NCBI GenBank assembly: GCA_903839035.1
Contig: CAIMAQ010000016.1
Location: 1-55,255, forward strand
From: an uncultured Opitutia bacterium
GTDB taxonomy: Bacteria; Verrucomicrobiota; Verrucomicrobiia; Opitutales; Opitutaceae
Direction: 5' to 3'
Length of the DNA stretch: 55,255 bases
The notes below the pieces were generated by a model, which had not been told where the DNA came from, ran no database searches, and was given only the letters and a program-made list of their open reading frames with translations. Made by a program: the position numbers and the translations under genes. Of this stretch, positions 7,552 to 55,255 are shown in pieces. Within the stretch, counting starts at the first letter, position 1. Every line of letters starts with the position of its first letter.

Positions 7552-7612
7552 GGAGAGGGGAGATGGGAGATAGGGGTTCGAGCCCATCTCCTATCTCCCA
7601 TCTCCCCTCTCC
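7552..7612. terminator. Perfect 23-bp hairpin between convergent genes
   Basis: Positions 7552-7574 and 7590-7612 are exact reverse complements (23 bp, 15-nt loop). The arms are built from heptamers of the CTCCCAT/GGGAGAT type. It lies between the ends of the plus-strand gene at 7530 and the minus-strand gene at 7634, where it could stop transcription from both sides, though no long T run follows. It is also a member of the period-7 repeat group. Confidence 0.6.
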
Positions 7613-11144: not shown

Positions 11145-13214
11145 ATGTTCCCCTCCTTGTTGTGCCGCGTGGCGCTTGTCTGCTGTCTGCCGCTGGCCGC
11201 CCACGCCAACAGCCTGGTTTCGCTGCAAACCACCGAGCTTACCCCTGCGGCCGCCAGCGAAGTGATTCGGGCCTCGGCGCGCCCGGCCTATAACCTGGGG
11301 GCGCAGGAACTCGGCGCCACGTTGCAGCCCATCGCATCCGCCGAGCAGGATGACGCCCGGTTCGTGCTGGCGCACGATGCCGCCGGTCAGGCCGTGTTCT
11401 TGCGCCGGGACGCCAAGACCAACTGGGAGCCCCGGGCCGTGCCACCCTTTCCGCTGCTGCCCGTGGCCCAGTCCGTCGGCCAGTCCCATGTATTCTTCGT
11501 CTCGCCCGACCCCGCGGCCGGGCAACTCCGGCTCGTCGCCTACCACACAATCACCAACACTTGGGCTGTCCTCGGCACCTGGCCACTGGTCGGCACGGTC
11601 GAAACAGCCGCACCTTCGCCCAATGGCTTTGTCGTCTCGACCCGCGATCCGGCCGGGAAGCTGCATTACACCCAGGCCGAGCTCATTTCCTCCAAACGCG
11701 GGCTCAAGGTCGTCGATTACGCCGTCATCGCCACCTACCTCTGTGTCGTCGCCGGCATCGGCTTGTATTTCTATCTCACCGGCAAGAAGGACCCGGCCAA
11801 CTTCTTCGTCGCCGGCCGCCGCATCCCGTGGTGGGCCGCCGGGCTCTCGCTCTACGCCACCGGCACGAGCGCCATCAGCTACCTCGCCATCCCCGCCAAA
11901 TCCTACGCCACCAACTGGCTCTACCTCGCGCAGAACGTCATCACCTTCGTCGGCTCGATCTACGTCGCCTTCGTGATCGTCCCGCTCGTCCGGCGGCTGA
12001 ACCTCATTTCCGTCTACCAGTACCTCGAGATGCGCTTCCACCCCACCGTGCGCATGATGGCCTCGCTGATCTGCATCGTGCAGCACCTGGCCGGCCGCAT
12101 GAGCGTGGTCTTGCTGCTGCCCGCGCTCGCACTGTCCGCCGTCACCGGCATTGGCCTGACCACGACCGTGCTTGTCATGGGCGTCATCACGACCCTCTAC
12201 ACCTTTCTCGGCGGCATGAAGGCCGTCATCTGGACCGATGTGCTCCAGGTCTTCGTCATGATCGGCGGCGCGCTCTTCGCCATGACCTGGATGATCCATG
12301 GCGCCGGCGGGCTCGGCGCGGTGGTGCACACCGCGCTCGCGGACCACAAGACCCACATGTTTGACTGGAGCTTCGACTTCTCGATTCCGAACGTCTGGAC
12401 CTACGTCCTCCTGCTCATCGTCGGCACCCTCACGTGGCCGCAGGACCAGGTCATGACCCAGCGCGTGCTCTCGACCAAGGACGACAAGGCCGCCCGCAGC
12501 TCGCTGTTCATGCTCACAGCCATCGCGCTGCCCGGCAGCTTCCTGTTCTTCGGCCTCGGGACCGTCCTCTACGCCTACTACAAGGCCCATCCGGCCAACC
12601 TCAACCCGCTGCTCACGACCGACCAGATTTTCCCGCAGTTCATCGCCTCCGACCTGCCGGCGGGCGTCACCGGCCTGATCATTGCGGGCATCTTCGCCGC
12701 GTCCATGGCCACGCTCAGTTCCAACATCAATTCCATCGCGACGCTCGTCTCGGTGGATTTCTACGAGCGCTATGCCAAACGCCCCACGCCCGCCAAGAGC
12801 GTGCGCCTCGCCGAGTGGACCACGCTGCTCACCGGGGCGGCCGGCACGGCCCTCGCCCTGTACCTGTCGACCCTCGATATCCGGTCGCTCTGGGACAAGT
12901 TCATCGAGCTGATGGCCCTGCTCGGCGGCGGTTTCTCGGGCATCTACGCGCTCGGCATGTTCACGCGGCGCGCCAACTGGCAGGGCTGCGTCATCGGCAT
13001 CATCGCGAGCATCGTCTTTACGGTGCTCACCAAGTTCTACACCCCCCTCCACGTGCTGATGTACGCCGTCGTCTCCACCAGCGCCTGCATGATCTTCGGC
13101 TACCTCGGCAGCCTCTTTTTCCCTGCACCCACCCAATCCCTCCGCGGCCTCACCATCTTTGACCAGGTCAAAGGCGGCGTGCCAACCGACCCGGCCCAGC
13201 TCCGGGCCCATTGA
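11145..13214 (+). CDS. Sodium/solute symporter (SSS) with exported N-terminal domain
   Basis: A 689-residue protein. I chose the ATG at 11145, which gives a clean signal peptide (MFPSLLCRVALVCCLPLAAH). Residues 23-185 form an extracytoplasmic domain whose SHVFFVS and LRLVAYHTITNTWAVLGTWP look like one or two kelch-propeller blades. From about residue 187 (LKVVDYAVIATYLCVVAGI) it is a typical SSS permease with GRRIPWWAAGLSLYATGTSAISYL, GLTTTVLVMGVITTLYTFLGG and IFAASMATLSSNINSIATL. The permease uses the Na+ gradient to import a sugar or organic acid. Known relatives fuse a complete NanM-like mutarotase propeller to the permease, so this looks like a shortened version. The Gfo/Idh gene starts 4 bp after its stop, a likely operon partner. 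Confidence 0.88.
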   Translation: MFPSLLCRVALVCCLPLAAHANSLVSLQTTELTPAAASEVIRASARPAYNLGAQELGATLQPIASAEQDDARFVLAHDAAGQAVFLRRDAKTNWEPRAVPPFPLLPVAQSVGQSHVFFVSPDPAAGQLRLVAYHTITNTWAVLGTWPLVGTVETAAPSPNGFVVSTRDPAGKLHYTQAELISSKRGLKVVDYAVIATYLCVVAGIGLYFYLTGKKDPANFFVAGRRIPWWAAGLSLYATGTSAISYLAIPAKSYATNWLYLAQNVITFVGSIYVAFVIVPLVRRLNLISVYQYLEMRFHPTVRMMASLICIVQHLAGRMSVVLLLPALALSAVTGIGLTTTVLVMGVITTLYTFLGGMKAVIWTDVLQVFVMIGGALFAMTWMIHGAGGLGAVVHTALADHKTHMFDWSFDFSIPNVWTYVLLLIVGTLTWPQDQVMTQRVLSTKDDKAARSSLFMLTAIALPGSFLFFGLGTVLYAYYKAHPANLNPLLTTDQIFPQFIASDLPAGVTGLIIAGIFAASMATLSSNINSIATLVSVDFYERYAKRPTPAKSVRLAEWTTLLTGAAGTALALYLSTLDIRSLWDKFIELMALLGGGFSGIYALGMFTRRANWQGCVIGIIASIVFTVLTKFYTPLHVLMYAVVSTSACMIFGYLGSLFFPAPTQSLRGLTIFDQVKGGVPTDPAQLRAH

Positions 13215-49668: not shown

Positions 49669-50865
49669 CTACTTCCTCGCTGCCGGATCCGCCAATCCGT
49701 ACGTTTCCTCCGCCGCCTTGAGCAGCGTCCGGCTGATGATCAGCCGCTGCACCTCGCTCGAGCCCTCCCCGATCTCGCAAAGCCGGGCATCCCGCCACAT
49801 GCGCTCGACGAAGGTGTCCCGTGTATAACCCCAGCCGCCGCAGATCTGCAGCGAGCGGTTGCAGGCGCGCGAGGCGGCCTCCGACGCGTACAATTTCGCA
49901 AACGACCCCTCGAGGGTGAATTTCTGCCCGCGCGCATGCATCACGCAGGGCTGCAGCAGCAGCGCCTCCGCCGCCCGCAACTCCACCTCGCAGTCGGCGA
50001 GCATGAACTGCAACGCCTGGAACTCCGCAATGCGCTTCCCGAACTGCCGGCGCGAGAGCATCCGCTGTTTCGCAATCTCCACCGCCGCACGGCCCAGCCC
50101 GATGGCCATTGCCGCGATGCCCAGCCGCCCCGAGTCGAGGCAGGCGAGCGCCGCGTGCTGGCCCTTGCCGCGCTGGCCGACCAGTTCGCCTTTCACCTGC
50201 TTGAGGTAGAACTCACTCGTGTTGCTCGCGCGCACCCCGGCCGTCTTCACCTTCCGCACTTTTTCCGTGTGCGCGCTGTTGATCCAGAACGCGGAAAATT
50301 CCTTTTTTCCCTTCTCATCCCGGCCCGTGATGGCCATCACGATCATCCGGTCCGAGTGGTTGCCCATCGTGATGTAAAGCTTGTGACCGTTCAGCTCCCA
50401 CGTGCCGTCGGGCAGCAGCGTGGCGGTCGTCTCGACGCCGCCGGTGTCCGAACCCGCATTCGGCTCGGTCAGCGCCCACGCCACCATCCAATCGCCGTTC
50501 AGCACGCTGGGAAAAATTTTCTGCTTCAGCTCGTCACTCGCGTAGCCCAGCGGATGCCCAACGCAGAGCGCGTTGTGCGCCGCCATGTTCATCGCGAACG
50601 CCCCGCAGTGCCGCGCAATCTCCTCGATCGCCAGGCAAAAGCAGAGGATCGAGAGCTGCTGGCCGCCCACGGCTTTCGGGGCGAGCATGCCCATCAGGCC
50701 GGCCTTCCCGGCGGCGGTGAACAACGCGCGGGGCAATTCTTCCTTTTCCTCCCAGTCGGCGGCGAACGGGACGATTTCCTTCTGACAGAACACGGCGGTC
50801 TTTTTCAGGAACTCGATCTCCGCCGGCTGGAGGAAATCATGGTAGAGTGAATTGGGGTGTAACAT
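49669..50865 (-). CDS. Acyl-CoA dehydrogenase
   Basis: A 398-residue flavoenzyme of standard length from the ATG at 50865. FAD/substrate motifs: WALTEPNAGSDTGGVETTA, the C-terminal LQICGGWGYTRDTFVERMWRDA and CEIGEGSSEVQRLIISRTLL, where the Glu of IGEGSSE is the expected catalytic base of short-chain enzymes. It would oxidise a short or branched acyl-CoA such as isobutyryl-, isovaleryl- or butyryl-CoA. It is divergent from the mutase pair (156 bp between starts), and with the nearby MccB-like carboxylase suggests branched-chain amino acid or short acyl-CoA catabolism. Confidence 0.93.
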   Translation of the reverse strand: MLHPNSLYHDFLQPAEIEFLKKTAVFCQKEIVPFAADWEEKEELPRALFTAAGKAGLMGMLAPKAVGGQQLSILCFCLAIEEIARHCGAFAMNMAAHNALCVGHPLGYASDELKQKIFPSVLNGDWMVAWALTEPNAGSDTGGVETTATLLPDGTWELNGHKLYITMGNHSDRMIVMAITGRDEKGKKEFSAFWINSAHTEKVRKVKTAGVRASNTSEFYLKQVKGELVGQRGKGQHAALACLDSGRLGIAAMAIGLGRAAVEIAKQRMLSRRQFGKRIAEFQALQFMLADCEVELRAAEALLLQPCVMHARGQKFTLEGSFAKLYASEAASRACNRSLQICGGWGYTRDTFVERMWRDARLCEIGEGSSEVQRLIISRTLLKAAEETYGLADPAARK

Positions 50866-51021: not shown

Positions 51022-52245
51022 ATGCCTGCCGCCCCGAAACCCCGGTCCATGGCACCGCTCCGCATCCTCACCGCCGTGCCCATCTGCGACGGCCATGACA
51101 GCGCCGTGAGCACCATTAACATGGAACTCGCCCGCCACGGCTTCGAGGTCATCTACCTCGGCTACCACTGCCCCGTCAGCACCATCGTCCGCGCCGCGAT
51201 CCAGGAGGATATCCACGTCGTCGGCATCAGCTCCTACAACGGCGGCCATATCGTCTTCTTCAAGGAGGTCGTGGATCAGCTTCGGGCGTTGGGCGCCGGC
51301 GATGTTCCCCTCTTCGGCGGCGGAGGCGGCACCATCACGAAGGCCGACGAGCGCGTCATGCAGCGCCAGGGCACCGACCGGATCTTCCACGCCGGCACCC
51401 CGCTCGACGGCATCATGGCCCTCATCCGCAAGGAATACGGCCGCACCCTGAAACCCAATACCAAGCTCCGCGGCGACCGCGCGCTCGCCCGGGCGATCAC
51501 CCTTGCCGAACAGAATCCAACCCATCGCCCATCACCCATCGCCCATCACCCGCCGCAAAAGCGCACCCGCGCTTTTGTGGTCGGTGTCGCCGGCCCCGGC
51601 GGCGCGGGCAAATCCACCCTCATTGACGAGCTCACATCCCGCTTTCTCCGCCAAAACCCCGCCGGCCGCATCGCCATCCTCGCCAACGATCCCTCCCACC
51701 CTGACACCGGCGGTGCCATCCTCGGCGACCGCGTCTCGATGATTTATGCGCAGGACGACCGCGTGTTCTTCCGTTCCCTCGCCACCCGCGGCAGCCTCAC
51801 CGGCCTCTCCGCCGCCGCCCCCGCGGCCATCGAGATCCTGCGCGCCAGCGGCGAGTTTGACCTCATCCTCGTCGAGTCCGTCGGCATCGGCCAAGAGAGC
51901 GATCCGTTCGGCCTCTTCGGCAAAAAACACCGGCTCGTTGACGCCATGCTCTTCGTCCTCGCGCCCTACTACGGCGGACGCCTCCAGTTGCAGAAGATCG
52001 GCCTGCTCAACGGCGCCGACCTCGTCGCCATCAACAAGTGCGACCATCCCATGGCCCACACCGCCCGCGCCGAGATCGCCGCCCGCCTCGCTGCCAACGG
52101 CAAGGGCCAGCGCCTCTTTGGCACCGTCGCCGCCAAACACCACGACCCCGGCGTGGACACCCTCTACGCCGCCCTCGCCGAGCTCGGCCACCTGAAAGTC
52201 ACCCCCGGCGGCGAAAAACCCTGCCAACTGGAGGTCGCGCCATGA
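51022..52245 (+). CDS. IcmF-type B12-binding domain fused to G-protein chaperone (split mutase, part 1)
   Basis: A 407-residue protein; the start is the ATG at 51022 (MPAAPKPRSMAPLRIL), with 51049 as alternative. Residues 10-145 are a cobalamin-binding domain: the ligand His is in AVPICDGHDSAVS, then VVGISSYNGGH and LFGGGGGTI. Residues 180-400 are a MeaB-like GTPase: Walker A GPGGAGKST, switch DPSHPDTGGAILGDRVSM, VESVGIGQ and NKCD. This is the N-terminal half of IcmF, which normally continues into the mutase. The joint between the two domains is (CCCATCR)4 repeat (residues 167-177, THRPSPIAHHP). The stop overlaps the ATG of a 23-codon mini-ORF. Together with the next genes it should convert isobutyryl- or butyryl-CoA, and the G domain protects or loads the cofactor. 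Confidence 0.88.
   Translation: MPAAPKPRSMAPLRILTAVPICDGHDSAVSTINMELARHGFEVIYLGYHCPVSTIVRAAIQEDIHVVGISSYNGGHIVFFKEVVDQLRALGAGDVPLFGGGGGTITKADERVMQRQGTDRIFHAGTPLDGIMALIRKEYGRTLKPNTKLRGDRALARAITLAEQNPTHRPSPIAHHPPQKRTRAFVVGVAGPGGAGKSTLIDELTSRFLRQNPAGRIAILANDPSHPDTGGAILGDRVSMIYAQDDRVFFRSLATRGSLTGLSAAAPAAIEILRASGEFDLILVESVGIGQESDPFGLFGKKHRLVDAMLFVLAPYYGGRLQLQKIGLLNGADLVAINKCDHPMAHTARAEIAARLAANGKGQRLFGTVAAKHHDPGVDTLYAALAELGHLKVTPGGEKPCQLEVAP
51521..51551. repeat. Four perfect CCCATCR heptamers inside the B12/G-domain joint
   Basis: CCCATCG, CCCATCA, CCCATCG, CCCATCA, then CCC. They are in frame and encode THRPSPIAHHP, the same peptide as the mini-ORF at 52242-52313 encodes from its own copy. Confidence 0.9.
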
Positions 52246-52313
52246 CTGCCGTCTCCACCCATCGCCCATCACCTATCGCCCATCTCCTTGGCGGCACCGG
52301 AGGTGCCGCATGA
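52242..52313 (+). CDS. 23-codon mini-ORF bridging the split mutase genes
   Basis: ATG at 52242 overlaps the stop of the B12/G-protein gene (ATGA), and its own TGA (52311-52313) overlaps the ATG of the mutase gene (ATGA). The peptide begins MTAVSTHRPSPIAHLL and is mostly heptamer-repeat translation, followed by GGTGGAA. The three frames step by one each time, so ribosomes could pass from gene to gene by re-initiation. Whether the peptide is made or matters is unknown; it may only be a spacer. Confidence 0.5.
   Translation: MTAVSTHRPSPIAHLLGGTGGAA
52258..52285. repeat. Four CCCATCR-type heptamers at the G-domain/mutase joint
   Basis: CCCATCG, CCCATCA, CCTATCG, CCCATCT in tandem, between the stop of the G-protein gene and the mutase start. 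A second copy of the repeat at 51521-51551. Confidence 0.88.
52291..52309 (+). promoter_or_regulatory. Hairpin enclosing the mutase ribosome-binding site
   Basis: GCGGCACC (52291-52298), loop GGA, GGTGCCGC (52302-52309) is a perfect 8-bp stem that ends one base before the ATG at 52310. The Shine-Dalgarno-like GGAGG (52299-52303) is in the loop and the upper stem, so folding would hide it. Ribosomes translating the mini-ORF would melt it. Confidence 0.6.
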
Positions 52314-54148
52314 GTTCCCTGGGCAAAATCGCCGACGCCGTCGACGCCTACAACGCCCACGTCGCCACCGAGGTGGCCCGGGCACGTACGGATATTGCCT
52401 TCGCCGCCGACCTCCGGGCCCGCTGGGCGAAGATCCGCGCCGGCATCGAGACCACCCACTCCCCCACCGGCACGCCGCTCCCGCGCCTCGCCCTCCCGCC
52501 CACCGACGAACCCGGCGCCATCGCCGAATACCTCCTCGGCCAGGGCCTGCCCGGCGAGTTCCCCTACGCCAACGCCGCGTACCGCGAAATGTACCTCGAC
52601 CGGGATTCTGAGGTAGGGCGCGTTATCCCTAACGCGCCAGTTGGAGCCGAGTCCAAGGACCAAACCCGGCGGGTTAAGGATAACCCGCCCCACCCGCAGA
52701 CCCCCGTCAGCGAGGAGCCCATGCGCCTGTTCGCCGGCCTCGGGCTCGCCGAGGACACCAACGCTCGCTTCCACTACCTCGGCAAGCACCAGAAAAGTCT
52801 CCGCCTCTCCACCGCCTTCGACGGCCCCACGCTCTACGGCCTCGACTCCGACCATGAGGGCGTGCTCGGCAAGGTCGGCGAGGGCGGCGTGGCGATTGAT
52901 ACCGTCGAGGACATGACCCGGCTCTTCGCCGGCTTCGACCTCACGCGCAAGGACGCCTCCGTCTCGATGACGATGAACGCCCCCGCGCCGGTCATTCTCG
53001 CGATGTTCATCGCGTCTGCGAAGCGCCGCTTCGGTCCCGATTGCGTGCCGAACCTCCGCGGCACCATCCAGGCCGACATGCTCAAGGAGGTGCAGGCGCA
53101 GAACGAGGTCATCTTCCCAATCGACGCCTCCCTGCGCTTCCTCTGCGACATGATCGAGTGGTGCGTGCCCAACATGCCGCGCTGGTATCCCGTCAGCATC
53201 TCCGGTTACCACATCGCCGAGGCCGGGGCTACGCCCGTGCAGCAGGCCGCGTTCACGCTCTCCAACGGCTTCACCTACCTTGAGTTGCTTCGGGCCCGCG
53301 GTGCCGACGTCAACGCGATCGGCCCGCGCCTCTCCTTCTTTTTGGACTGCGGTCTCGACGTGGAATACCTCGTCCTCGGCCGCGTCTGCCGCCGCCTCTG
53401 GGCCATCGGCATGCGTGACGCCTTTGGCGCCAACACCAAGGCGCAGGTCCTGAAGCTCCACACGCAGACGAGCGGCCGCTCGCTCATCGCCGCCGAGTTC
53501 CAGAACAACCTCACCCGCACCGCCGTCGAGCTGATGCTGGCGTACCTGAACTACACCAATTCCTGCCACTCCAACTCCGCCGACGAGCCGTTCACCACGC
53601 CCACCGCGAAGTATGCCACCCTCGCCTCGCACGGCCAGTCGATCATCATGGAGGAGTCCGGCGTGTTTAAGCACACGATGAACCTCCTCGGTGGCTCCCC
53701 CGGCCTGCTCCAGCTCGAGCGCCAGGTCGAGGCCGGCATCCTCGCCGTGTTTCGCGAGATGGACACCCTGGGCGGCGTCCTCGCCGCGCAGGAGCAGCGC
53801 TACCAGCGCAGCAAGATCCAGGAAGCCGGCCACGCGTACGAGCAGCAGATCTACTCTGGGAAACGTCCCATCATCGGACTCAACAAGTACATCACCGATG
53901 AGCCCATGCCGAGCGTCCCCCTGGCCCGCACGTCACCGAAGAAACAGCACCTGCAAGTCGAGCGCCTCCGCGCCTTCAAAAAGAAGCACGCCAAGTCCGC
54001 CCCCGCCGCCCTGCAGAAGCTGGAAAACGTCGCCCGCGCCAACGGCAACGTCTTCGCCGAGCTGATCAACACCGTCGAAGTCTGTTCCCTCGGCCAGATC
54101 ACCGCATGCCTGACCAACGTGGTCGGAAAATTCCGCCCCATGGTCTGA
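52310..54148 (+). CDS. B12-dependent acyl-CoA mutase catalytic subunit, IcmF-type (split mutase, part 2)
   Basis: A 612-residue protein from the ATG at 52310 with GGAGG 6 nt upstream. Residues 1-100 match the IcmF linker (KIADAVDAYNAHVATEVARA). The TIM barrel begins at EEPMRLFAGLGLAEDTNARF and has STAFDGPTLYGLDSD, VSMTMNAPAPVILAMFI, VSISGYHIAEAGATP and QTSGRSLIAAEFQNN. At the position of methylmalonyl-CoA mutase Arg207 it has Gln (QAQNEVIFP), as in isobutyryl-CoA mutases; the residue matching MCM Tyr89 seems to be Tyr (NAAYREM), unlike the Phe of ICM. So the substrate may be isobutyryl/butyryl-CoA or something else. Residues 101-129 are a palindromic repeat inserted in frame. The B12 domain comes from the gene upstream. 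Confidence 0.88.
   Translation: MSSLGKIADAVDAYNAHVATEVARARTDIAFAADLRARWAKIRAGIETTHSPTGTPLPRLALPPTDEPGAIAEYLLGQGLPGEFPYANAAYREMYLDRDSEVGRVIPNAPVGAESKDQTRRVKDNPPHPQTPVSEEPMRLFAGLGLAEDTNARFHYLGKHQKSLRLSTAFDGPTLYGLDSDHEGVLGKVGEGGVAIDTVEDMTRLFAGFDLTRKDASVSMTMNAPAPVILAMFIASAKRRFGPDCVPNLRGTIQADMLKEVQAQNEVIFPIDASLRFLCDMIEWCVPNMPRWYPVSISGYHIAEAGATPVQQAAFTLSNGFTYLELLRARGADVNAIGPRLSFFLDCGLDVEYLVLGRVCRRLWAIGMRDAFGANTKAQVLKLHTQTSGRSLIAAEFQNNLTRTAVELMLAYLNYTNSCHSNSADEPFTTPTAKYATLASHGQSIIMEESGVFKHTMNLLGGSPGLLQLERQVEAGILAVFREMDTLGGVLAAQEQRYQRSKIQEAGHAYEQQIYSGKRPIIGLNKYITDEPMPSVPLARTSPKKQHLQVERLRAFKKKHAKSAPAALQKLENVARANGNVFAELINTVEVCSLGQITACLTNVVGKFRPMV
52612..52694. repeat. 83-bp palindromic repeat inside the mutase gene
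   Basis: Hairpin 1 GGCGCGTT-ATCCCT-AACGCGCC (52617-52638) preceded by GGTAG; hairpin 2 GGCGGGTT-AAGGAT-AACCCGCC (52668-52689) followed by CCACC. The second is an inverted near-copy of the first, separated by 29 nt. Related hairpins are at about 10936-11074. It is translated as residues 101-128 and falls between the linker and the first barrel strand. Confidence 0.85.
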
Positions 54149-54154
54149 TTTCCT

Positions 54155-54523
54155 ATGCGCAATTTCATGTTCACGCTTATCCTGCTTCTTGGCAGTGCGT
54201 GTTCGTACGATAAGCCGCGCGTTCAAGTGGGACTCTGGGCTGCAGAAATCAACGGGGCGAAGGTTGAGGTCGAAATAGTCACCAACGCCGACGGCAGACA
54301 TGACTTGCTGACTGCACGAGTGAACGGGGTTGCCACCCATTACCGGGGCACGTTTGACGGTGACCACTTCGATGGACGACAGCCCGTGCCATCAGGGTCG
54401 TCTTATCGCAAAAATTTGGGGGCGTGGACAATTGCAGAAATCAATCGAGAGGGTGACCTCGTGTGCAAAATGCTCATCACCTCTCAGATTCCCCCAGATA
54501 CAATTCTGCAGAAAACGAAGTAG
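54155..54523 (+). CDS. Small putative lipoprotein
   Basis: A 122-residue protein, ATG at 54155, 6 bp after the mutase stop. The N-terminus MRNFMFTLILLLGSACSYDK is a lipoprotein signal with lipobox GSAC. The mature part is beta-rich (RVQVGLWAAEINGAKVEVEI, then VNGVATHYRGTFDGDHFDG). No family recognised. Its base composition is clearly less GC-rich than the genes on both sides and it has no obvious link to acyl-CoA metabolism, which hints at late insertion between the mutase and carboxylase genes. Confidence 0.65.
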   Translation: MRNFMFTLILLLGSACSYDKPRVQVGLWAAEINGAKVEVEIVTNADGRHDLLTARVNGVATHYRGTFDGDHFDGRQPVPSGSSYRKNLGAWTIAEINREGDLVCKMLITSQIPPDTILQKTK

Positions 54524-54527
54524 CTCG

Positions 54528-55255
54528 ATGAAATCCCCAACCCCACCTTCTTCCAACCCCCTCCTCGACCGCTGCCACGAAGTCGCGCAGCAGGAGGCAG
54601 TCCTCCGCGAGGGCGGCGGACCCGACGGACTCGCCCGCCAGCACAAGCTTGGCCGGCTCTTCGCCCGCGAGCGAATCGCCGGGCTCATCGACGACCCGGC
54701 GTCCTTCCTCGAAACCGGGCTCTGGGCCGCAAACGGCATGTACCTCGACTGGGGCAAGTTTCCGGCCGCGGGCGTCGTCACCGGCATCGCCGACGTCGCG
54801 GGCCATCCGTGCATGATCGTCGCGAACGACGCCACGGTGAAGGCGGGGGCGTTTGTCCCGATGACGTGCAAGAAGCTCCTCCGCGCGCAACGCATCGCCT
54901 TTGAGTGCAACCTGCCGCTGGTCTACCTGGTGGACTCCGCTGGCGTGTTCCTGCCGATGCAGGACGAGATTTTTCCGGACGAGGACGACTTCGGCCGCAT
55001 CTTCCGCAACAACGCCGTCATCTCCGCCGCGGGCATTCCGCAATACGCCGCCATCATGGGCAACTGCGTCGCCGGCGGCGCCTACCTGCCCGTCCTCTGC
55101 GACAAGATCCTCATGACCGAGGGCAGCGGCCTCTACCTCGCCGGCCCGCAGCTTGTGAAGGCCGCCATCGGTCAGGAAACTGACACCGAAACCCTCGGCG
55201 GCGCCGCGATGCATGCGGAGATTTCCGGCACCGTGGATTTCAAGGAGAAGGACGA
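54528..55255 (+). CDS. Acyl-CoA carboxylase beta subunit (MccB-like), partial
   Basis: The first 242 residues of a carboxyltransferase, cut by the right edge. Start is the ATG at 54528, 4 bp after the lipoprotein stop. Typical blocks: HKLGRLFARERIAGLIDDPA, MIVANDATVKAGAFVPMTCKK, LPLVYLVDSAGVFLPMQDEIFP, DDFGRIFRNNAVISAAGIPQ, CVAGGAYLPVL and LAGPQLVKAAIGQETDTETLGG. The LPMQDEIFPDEDDFGRIF block is closest to 3-methylcrotonyl-CoA carboxylase, though propionyl- or geranyl-CoA enzymes are related. It transfers CO2 from biotin to the acyl-CoA. The biotin-carboxylase partner would be expected downstream. Fits with the acyl-CoA dehydrogenase and mutase next door. Confidence 0.9.
   Translation, partial: MKSPTPPSSNPLLDRCHEVAQQEAVLREGGGPDGLARQHKLGRLFARERIAGLIDDPASFLETGLWAANGMYLDWGKFPAAGVVTGIADVAGHPCMIVANDATVKAGAFVPMTCKKLLRAQRIAFECNLPLVYLVDSAGVFLPMQDEIFPDEDDFGRIFRNNAVISAAGIPQYAAIMGNCVAGGAYLPVLCDKILMTEGSGLYLAGPQLVKAAIGQETDTETLGGAAMHAEISGTVDFKEKD

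Follow-up and report, generated by a model that had tools for sequence, protein, structure and literature searches.

Why do the parts of a cobalamin-dependent acyl-CoA mutase, which IcmF carries on one chain, lie in two adjoining genes with repeats at their joints, and did those repeats cut the gene in two? The question is raised by a gene pair, here P1 and P2, near the end of a 55,255-nucleotide stretch of DNA from an uncultured Opitutia bacterium (contig CAIMAQ010000016.1; the whole stretch is referred to as the window), in which two arrays of the heptamer CCCATCR and one palindromic repeat occupy the joints between domains. IcmF, reportedly so named by Cracan in 2010, has the order B12-binding domain, G domain, linker and barrel, and this order is retained across P1 and P2, with the cut placed between the G domain and the linker, which stays on P2. 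The split is ancestral to the verrucomicrobial clade and common to many genomes, and the repeats are later, having arrived repeatedly in flexible joints.

An acyl-CoA mutase divided over two genes

The two genes and their domains are as follows.

51022-52245, + strand: P1, 407 amino acids, B12-binding domain fused to a MeaB-type G domain (Pfam and IcmF match)
51064-51396, + strand: B12-binding domain, P1 residues 15-125 (Pfam), with the invariant DGH
51484-52098, + strand: G domain (MeaB), P1 residues 155-359 (Pfam), with P-loop, NKxD and switch III Q322 and K325
52310-54148, + strand: P2, acyl-CoA mutase subunit, 612 amino acids (Pfam MM_CoA_mutase and IcmF match)
52310-52582, + strand: N-terminal segment of P2, homologue of the IcmF linker, residues ~1-91 (hhalign residues 4-91)
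52721-54127, + strand: mutase barrel, P2 residues 138-606 (Pfam MM_CoA_mutase), with F141, A169 and Q264

An earlier note on this DNA, made from the sequence alone, had described IcmF parts in IcmF order divided over two genes and had proposed aligning both proteins to IcmF; the coordinates, Pfam domains and structure alignments confirm that description. IcmF of C. metallidurans is the best solved relative of P1 (E 1.2e-63) and of P2 (E 4.9e-121), and AlphaFold models of the two (mean predicted local distance difference test, pLDDT, of 87.2 for P1 and 71.3 for P2) cover adjoining parts of it, P1 aligning to residues 21-429 of 4xc6 (Z 44.2, 384 aligned, 3.0 Å; Z 45.0 against 4xc8) and P2 to residues 447-1092 of 5cjt (Z 34.9, 551 aligned, 3.1 Å). 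Over P2 residues 4-91, hhalign finds homology with the IcmF linker at probability 97.5 and E 7.8e-12; residues 4-28, which form the first helix, match that linker (E 4.9e-5) and match neither the MeaB C-terminus nor the N-termini of unfused mutases, the MeaB set being small with several short rows. As candidates for the whole N-terminus of P2, the C-terminal arm of MeaB was rejected (hhalign probability 2%, a weak negative from 15 MeaB rows, several cut short) and the N-terminus of unfused mutases was judged weak (probability 94.9 for the whole segment, only 0.1 for the first 56 residues). Likeness to IcmF (PDB 4xc6 and others) thus extends over domain order, linker homology, the Phe/Gln active-site pair, the switch III Gln and Lys, and the B12 and GTP motifs. 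In contrast to the one chain of IcmF, the domains of the window and its relatives are on two, the linker is shorter, and P2 lacks a barrel insertion of ~20 residues found in IcmF.

Conservation was read from alignments of 62 (P2) and 68 (P1) of 80 related loci plus the window, after rows with broken or cut frames, rows lacking a start codon where one was expected and duplicates had been dropped. F141, A169 and Q264 of P2 are invariant in 63/63 rows, as are the DGH (D23 G24 H25), P-loop, NKxD, Q322 and K325 of P1 in 69/69. The three P2 residues align with Phe, Ala and Gln of IcmF, where the counterparts of F141 and Q264 are, in the numbering that we assume, F598 and Q742; methylmalonyl-CoA mutase (MCM) has Tyr/Arg and 2-hydroxyisobutyryl-CoA mutase (HCM) Ile/Asp. 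Compared with human MCM, P2 has Phe/Gln in place of the Tyr (Y89)/Arg substrate pair, the Arg presumably being R207, and compared with 4r3u it has F141 and A169 in place of the HCM signature Ile and Asp, which we take to be I90 and D117. By alignment, Q322 and K325 of P1 correspond to IcmF Q341 and K344, both of which are described as required for GTPase activity in the accessible text of PMC10481361. Both genes are under purifying selection, with dN/dS (NG86, against three relatives) of 0.22-0.24 for P1 and 0.08-0.18 for P2.

P1 and P2 most likely constitute a two-subunit enzyme of the isobutyryl-CoA mutase type in which the B12 subunit carries its own G-protein chaperone, though we infer assembly, substrate and cofactor traffic from sequence. 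P1 would be the cobalamin subunit with its attached chaperone and P2 the substrate barrel carrying the linker. An adenosyltransferase was found in the window's genome, in which neither a second mutase nor a second MeaB was found, and would hand adenosylcobalamin to P1; the P1 G domain would gate cofactor loading, the P1 B12 domain would dock on the P2 dimer, and the complex would isomerise a short branched acyl-CoA, putatively isobutyryl/n-butyryl or isovaleryl/pivalyl. Several points weigh against this reading. The NCBIfam IcmF model NF045497 is the best model for both proteins, and both miss its cut-off of 1500 bits (P1 278.4, P2 516.1); the quality of the P2 model is only fair, with a mean pLDDT of 71; P2, its linker being shorter than that of IcmF, may have lost the dimer interface of IcmF; and the one genome with unlinked genes (see below) is a metagenome bin.

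Among known systems, isobutyryl-CoA mutase (IcmA/IcmB) is a two-subunit acyl-CoA mutase with a B12 subunit that has no G domain. HCM (PDB 4r3u) likewise has separate barrel and B12 subunits, but its B12 subunit is without a G domain and its residues differ at both signature places. MCM with standalone MeaB/MMAA shares the G-protein-assisted loading of cobalamin, whereas its chaperone is a separate protein and its active site has Tyr/Arg rather than Phe/Gln. The chaperone layouts given in the accessible text of two 2023 papers (PMC10481361, PMC9974510) are two, MeaB/MMAA as a standalone protein and IcmF with all domains fused, the latter called a notable exception, with the benefit of fusion posed as a question. 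No description of a B12-G subunit with a separate barrel was found in the literature searched, out of whose reach many subscription papers lay. The gene pair represents a natural layout with chaperone and B12 domain joined and the barrel free, intermediate between standalone and fused, and the existence of homologous one-chain and two-chain enzymes allows a test of what fusion brings. Such pairs escape the IcmF family cut-off and are likely to be named methylmalonyl-CoA mutase.

Age and origin of the split

Among 38 genomes searched for relatives, eight, seven from the window's genus and one from its family, held a close P2, and every one of them has P1 and P2 as separate genes. The gene junction is an ATGA overlap of 4 bases in five of them, which leaves no room for an array, and a gap of 61, 43 or 17 bases in the other three. 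Neither a CCCATCR array in the gene pair nor the palindrome with its 31-residue P2 insert was found in any of the eight, so the repeats did not cause the split. The proposal of the earlier note that repeat entry drove fission of the gene is therefore reversed in order, to an old split and later repeats; close relatives split without repeats at these joints are what the note itself had named as evidence against its proposal. One of the eight, L043, carries an array of another seven-base unit between its genes and, at the B12/G joint, a pair resembling repetitive extragenic palindromes (REPs). The P1/P2 pair was not found in four of 12 same-genus genomes.

A contig scan with two peptide patterns, which says little on other phyla because the patterns were taken from Opitutaceae, extended the set to 129 relatives, of which the best 80, all Verrucomicrobiota, were kept. 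A mutase accompanies P1 in the stretch in 73 of these best 80, as a separate frame in 73/73, an identical cut that is therefore not a sequencing slip. Of the remaining seven, six stop after the G domain and one (L074) is cut by the end of its contig; when the genomes of five of the loci were searched, that of L116 gave no mutase. The genes overlap by 4 bases in 32/75 loci, and the spacing ranges from -4 to >1000 bases. Across 387 sampled genomes of the phylum, P1-type matches occurred in 15, one of them the G part only, and no fused gene over the IcmF cut-off was found in the 387 or in the 14 control genomes of the survey. In other phyla, ten plasmid records comprised six fused IcmFs, the positive control for detecting fusion by the frame test, three with all parts separate, and one from Sinorhizobium medicae (L182, 3935-5407) with B12 domain and MeaB in one frame beside a separate mutase. 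This last candidate was dropped as a strain-level frame difference, as other S. medicae records have the match in two pieces and the annotated record lists two genes.

In one metagenome bin (G412) the sole P1 lies inside one contig (C49:148441-149562) and the sole close mutase on a separate 13.7-kb contig (C45:1032-2801), ~1 kb from its end; the open reading frames (ORFs) tested around the two are unrelated. With the genes on different contigs the products must, if the bin is sound, work as separate chains.

The mutase tree, of 59 rows, places 34 split rows in one clade (100/99) and seven fused IcmFs in another (100/100); the two clades are sisters, their common node has 100/100, and HCM, MCM and the unfused mutases from plasmids branch outside it. 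In the tree of B12 and G domains (35 rows), 21 split rows (97/95) and seven IcmFs (100/99) are sisters again. The verrucomicrobial pair is thus a sister clade of the fused IcmFs in both trees, outside their clade and not nested in it, so the split form is not derived from within IcmF as sampled by seven IcmF rows, few outgroups and long branches, with 2/5 outgroup rows misplaced in the mutase tree. Fewest events favour a split-first ancestor; root and polarity are not fixed by the trees.

Four accounts of the split can be set against these results. That repeat insertion broke a fused icmF in this lineage is hardly credible, for all that the window has repeats at its three joints and that joints attract repeats in Opitutaceae, given eight split relatives without these repeats (five with the ATGA overlap), the 4-base overlaps of the wider set and the lack of a fused gene over the family cut-off in the 387 sampled genomes. 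A single polypeptide produced by frameshift or read-through, or a split produced by faulty assembly, could be suspected where genes adjoin, often with ATGA, and is very improbable: the two frames differ, the spacing varies over the wide range given above, the bin G412 has the genes unlinked, and the split is conserved in many independent assemblies.

The two remaining accounts differ in the direction of change. One old fission of a fused IcmF, unrelated to the present repeats, is a real possibility to which we give somewhat less than even weight; in its favour the first helix of P2 matches the IcmF linker and not the MeaB C-terminus, as if the linker had stayed with the mutase, but the MeaB negative is weak (a small set, several rows cut short), and with unfused mutases branching outside the two sister clades this account needs one more event than the opposite order. 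The linker-like first helix, shared only with IcmF, may itself be read either way as to a fused or a split ancestor. That the pair keeps a stage preceding IcmF, with B12 and G domains joined first and the mutase later, is on balance probable, by a modest degree, from the sister clades of both trees, the unfused relatives outside them and the count of events, and is held back by the sparse IcmF and outgroup rows, the long branches and the misplaced outgroups. Going further, we suggest only tentatively that the verrucomicrobial pair preserves to this day a step by which IcmF arose, the fused IcmF being a later, tethered version. If true, capture of the chaperone by the B12 domain came first and produced a dissociable loading subunit able to pair G domain with G domain, to take up adenosylcobalamin while away from the barrel and then to dock on the mutase dimer.

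Repeats at the joints

The repeats of the window at the joints of the gene pair are these.

51521-51548, + strand: (CCCATCR)4 array at the B12/G joint, four exact copies, in frame
52258-52285, + strand: CCCATCR-type array between the genes, four copies with two departures
52613-52693, + strand: paired REP at the linker/barrel joint, GTAG and two inverted hairpins, in frame, ~31 amino acids

The claim of repeats at every joint stands for the three joints of the window, where they exceed chance, and does not extend to the family, since only the window and L054 have them throughout among 23 Opitutaceae loci. A three-unit CCCATCR pattern (≤3 mismatches) occurs eight times in the window, the expectation from shuffles being 0.08, with five of the eight in the P1/P2 region, and the REP hairpins (52617-52638 and 52668-52689), each found on both strands, give four matches against 0.03 expected. 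The first hairpin is directly preceded by GTAG (52613-52616), the second having GTGG instead. At the REP position P2 is 31 amino acids longer than its nearest relative, and residues 99-142, the region of the REP-encoded stretch, have pLDDT <50. Across the window's genome the heptamer is scattered (52 matches versus 8 for a backward control), the REP stretch has seven matches including itself (E up to 0.01; six partial, of 27-39 bases), and two Y1_Tnp genes over the cut-off are candidate REP-associated tyrosine transposases (RAYTs). GTAG-tagged REPs, some inside genes, are already in print, with Opitutus terrae named as rich in GTAG repeats (PMC3733652). Those repeats share the GTAG, the hairpin, the inverted pair and the in-frame location, and nothing essential differs in the accessible text of that paper; here they recur at the domain joints of one gene pair.

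After filters, the repeat count covered 23 of the 24 Opitutaceae loci and 47 of the 56 others, with the rate within domains as the expectation. In the Opitutaceae, hairpins seen and expected numbered 8 and 0.57 at the B12/G joint, 5 and 0.41 between the genes, and 7 and 0.23 at the linker/barrel joint, and tandem arrays 5 and 0.14, 7 and 0.10, and 1 and 0.06, respectively. This concentration upholds the earlier suggestion that the joints tolerate repeats. Some repeat is found at a joint in 15/23 loci, and the joint repeats differ from species to species, for which tolerance of the flexible joints is a simple explanation. A palindrome at the linker/barrel joint is present in five loci; the tree requires four changes to account for it, no fewer than three of them on well-supported branches, so this one place has seen several gains or losses. 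The palindrome label is no more clustered than shuffled labels (108/500 as low). Among the 47 loci of other families only tandem arrays at the B12/G joint are enriched (33 versus 0.6 expected), hairpins not being enriched at the B12/G joint (1 versus 0.9) or the linker/barrel joint (1 versus 0.7).

The array between the genes is spanned by a predicted small frame.

52242-52313, + strand: mini-ORF, 23 codons (72 bases), spanning the second CCCATCR-type array

Its ATG overlaps the P1 stop and its TGA the P2 start, each as ATGA. The spacing needed for such a frame (1 mod 3) is found in 11/14 gapped Opitutaceae loci (binomial p 7e-4, a value inflated in strength by shared ancestry of the insertions), and in nine of the 14 the frame reads uninterrupted as far back as the P1 stop; of 25 gapped loci elsewhere, 17 have this spacing and 11 are open. 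Judged from sequence, the insertions that survived may be those in which a small relay frame preserved the translational coupling, which is offered as a lead only.

Related repeats were observed at other places. At 1519-1551 the window has four copies of ACGCAGAG and, ~55 bases on (1607-1630), three reverse-complement copies, a palindrome of tandem arrays, and a second array pair in inverted order is formed by GGAGATG copies at 7552-7571 and CCCATCT copies at 7583-7612. In the window's genome a REP match follows the adenosyltransferase match at a distance of 27 bases (G000:C46:81782-82342). The REP-encoded stretch of P2 also matches, in frame, within the neighbouring carboxyl transferase gene of G009 (G009:C30:208969-209088; L043 ~12970-13089); in the search of the 38 genomes this stretch has such matches at 20 places in all, six of them with stops.

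Neighbouring genes

The gene pair is flanked in the window by two genes with Pfam matches.

49669-50865, - strand: acyl-CoA dehydrogenase, divergent neighbour
54528-55253, + strand: carboxyl transferase, truncated by the window end

Across the 24 Opitutaceae loci, neighbours include acyl-CoA dehydrogenase (12), carboxyl transferase (13) and AtuA (7), and a short-chain dehydrogenase is a neighbour in 48/56 loci outside the family, counts taken from stretches many of which are truncated. As predicted functions, these neighbours suit branched-chain or isovaleryl/isobutyryl-CoA breakdown. Between P2 and the carboxyl transferase, a 122-amino-acid ORF with a lipoprotein-like start and without a Pfam match occupies 54155-54523, and an ORF of 119 amino acids is its counterpart at the corresponding place in L043.

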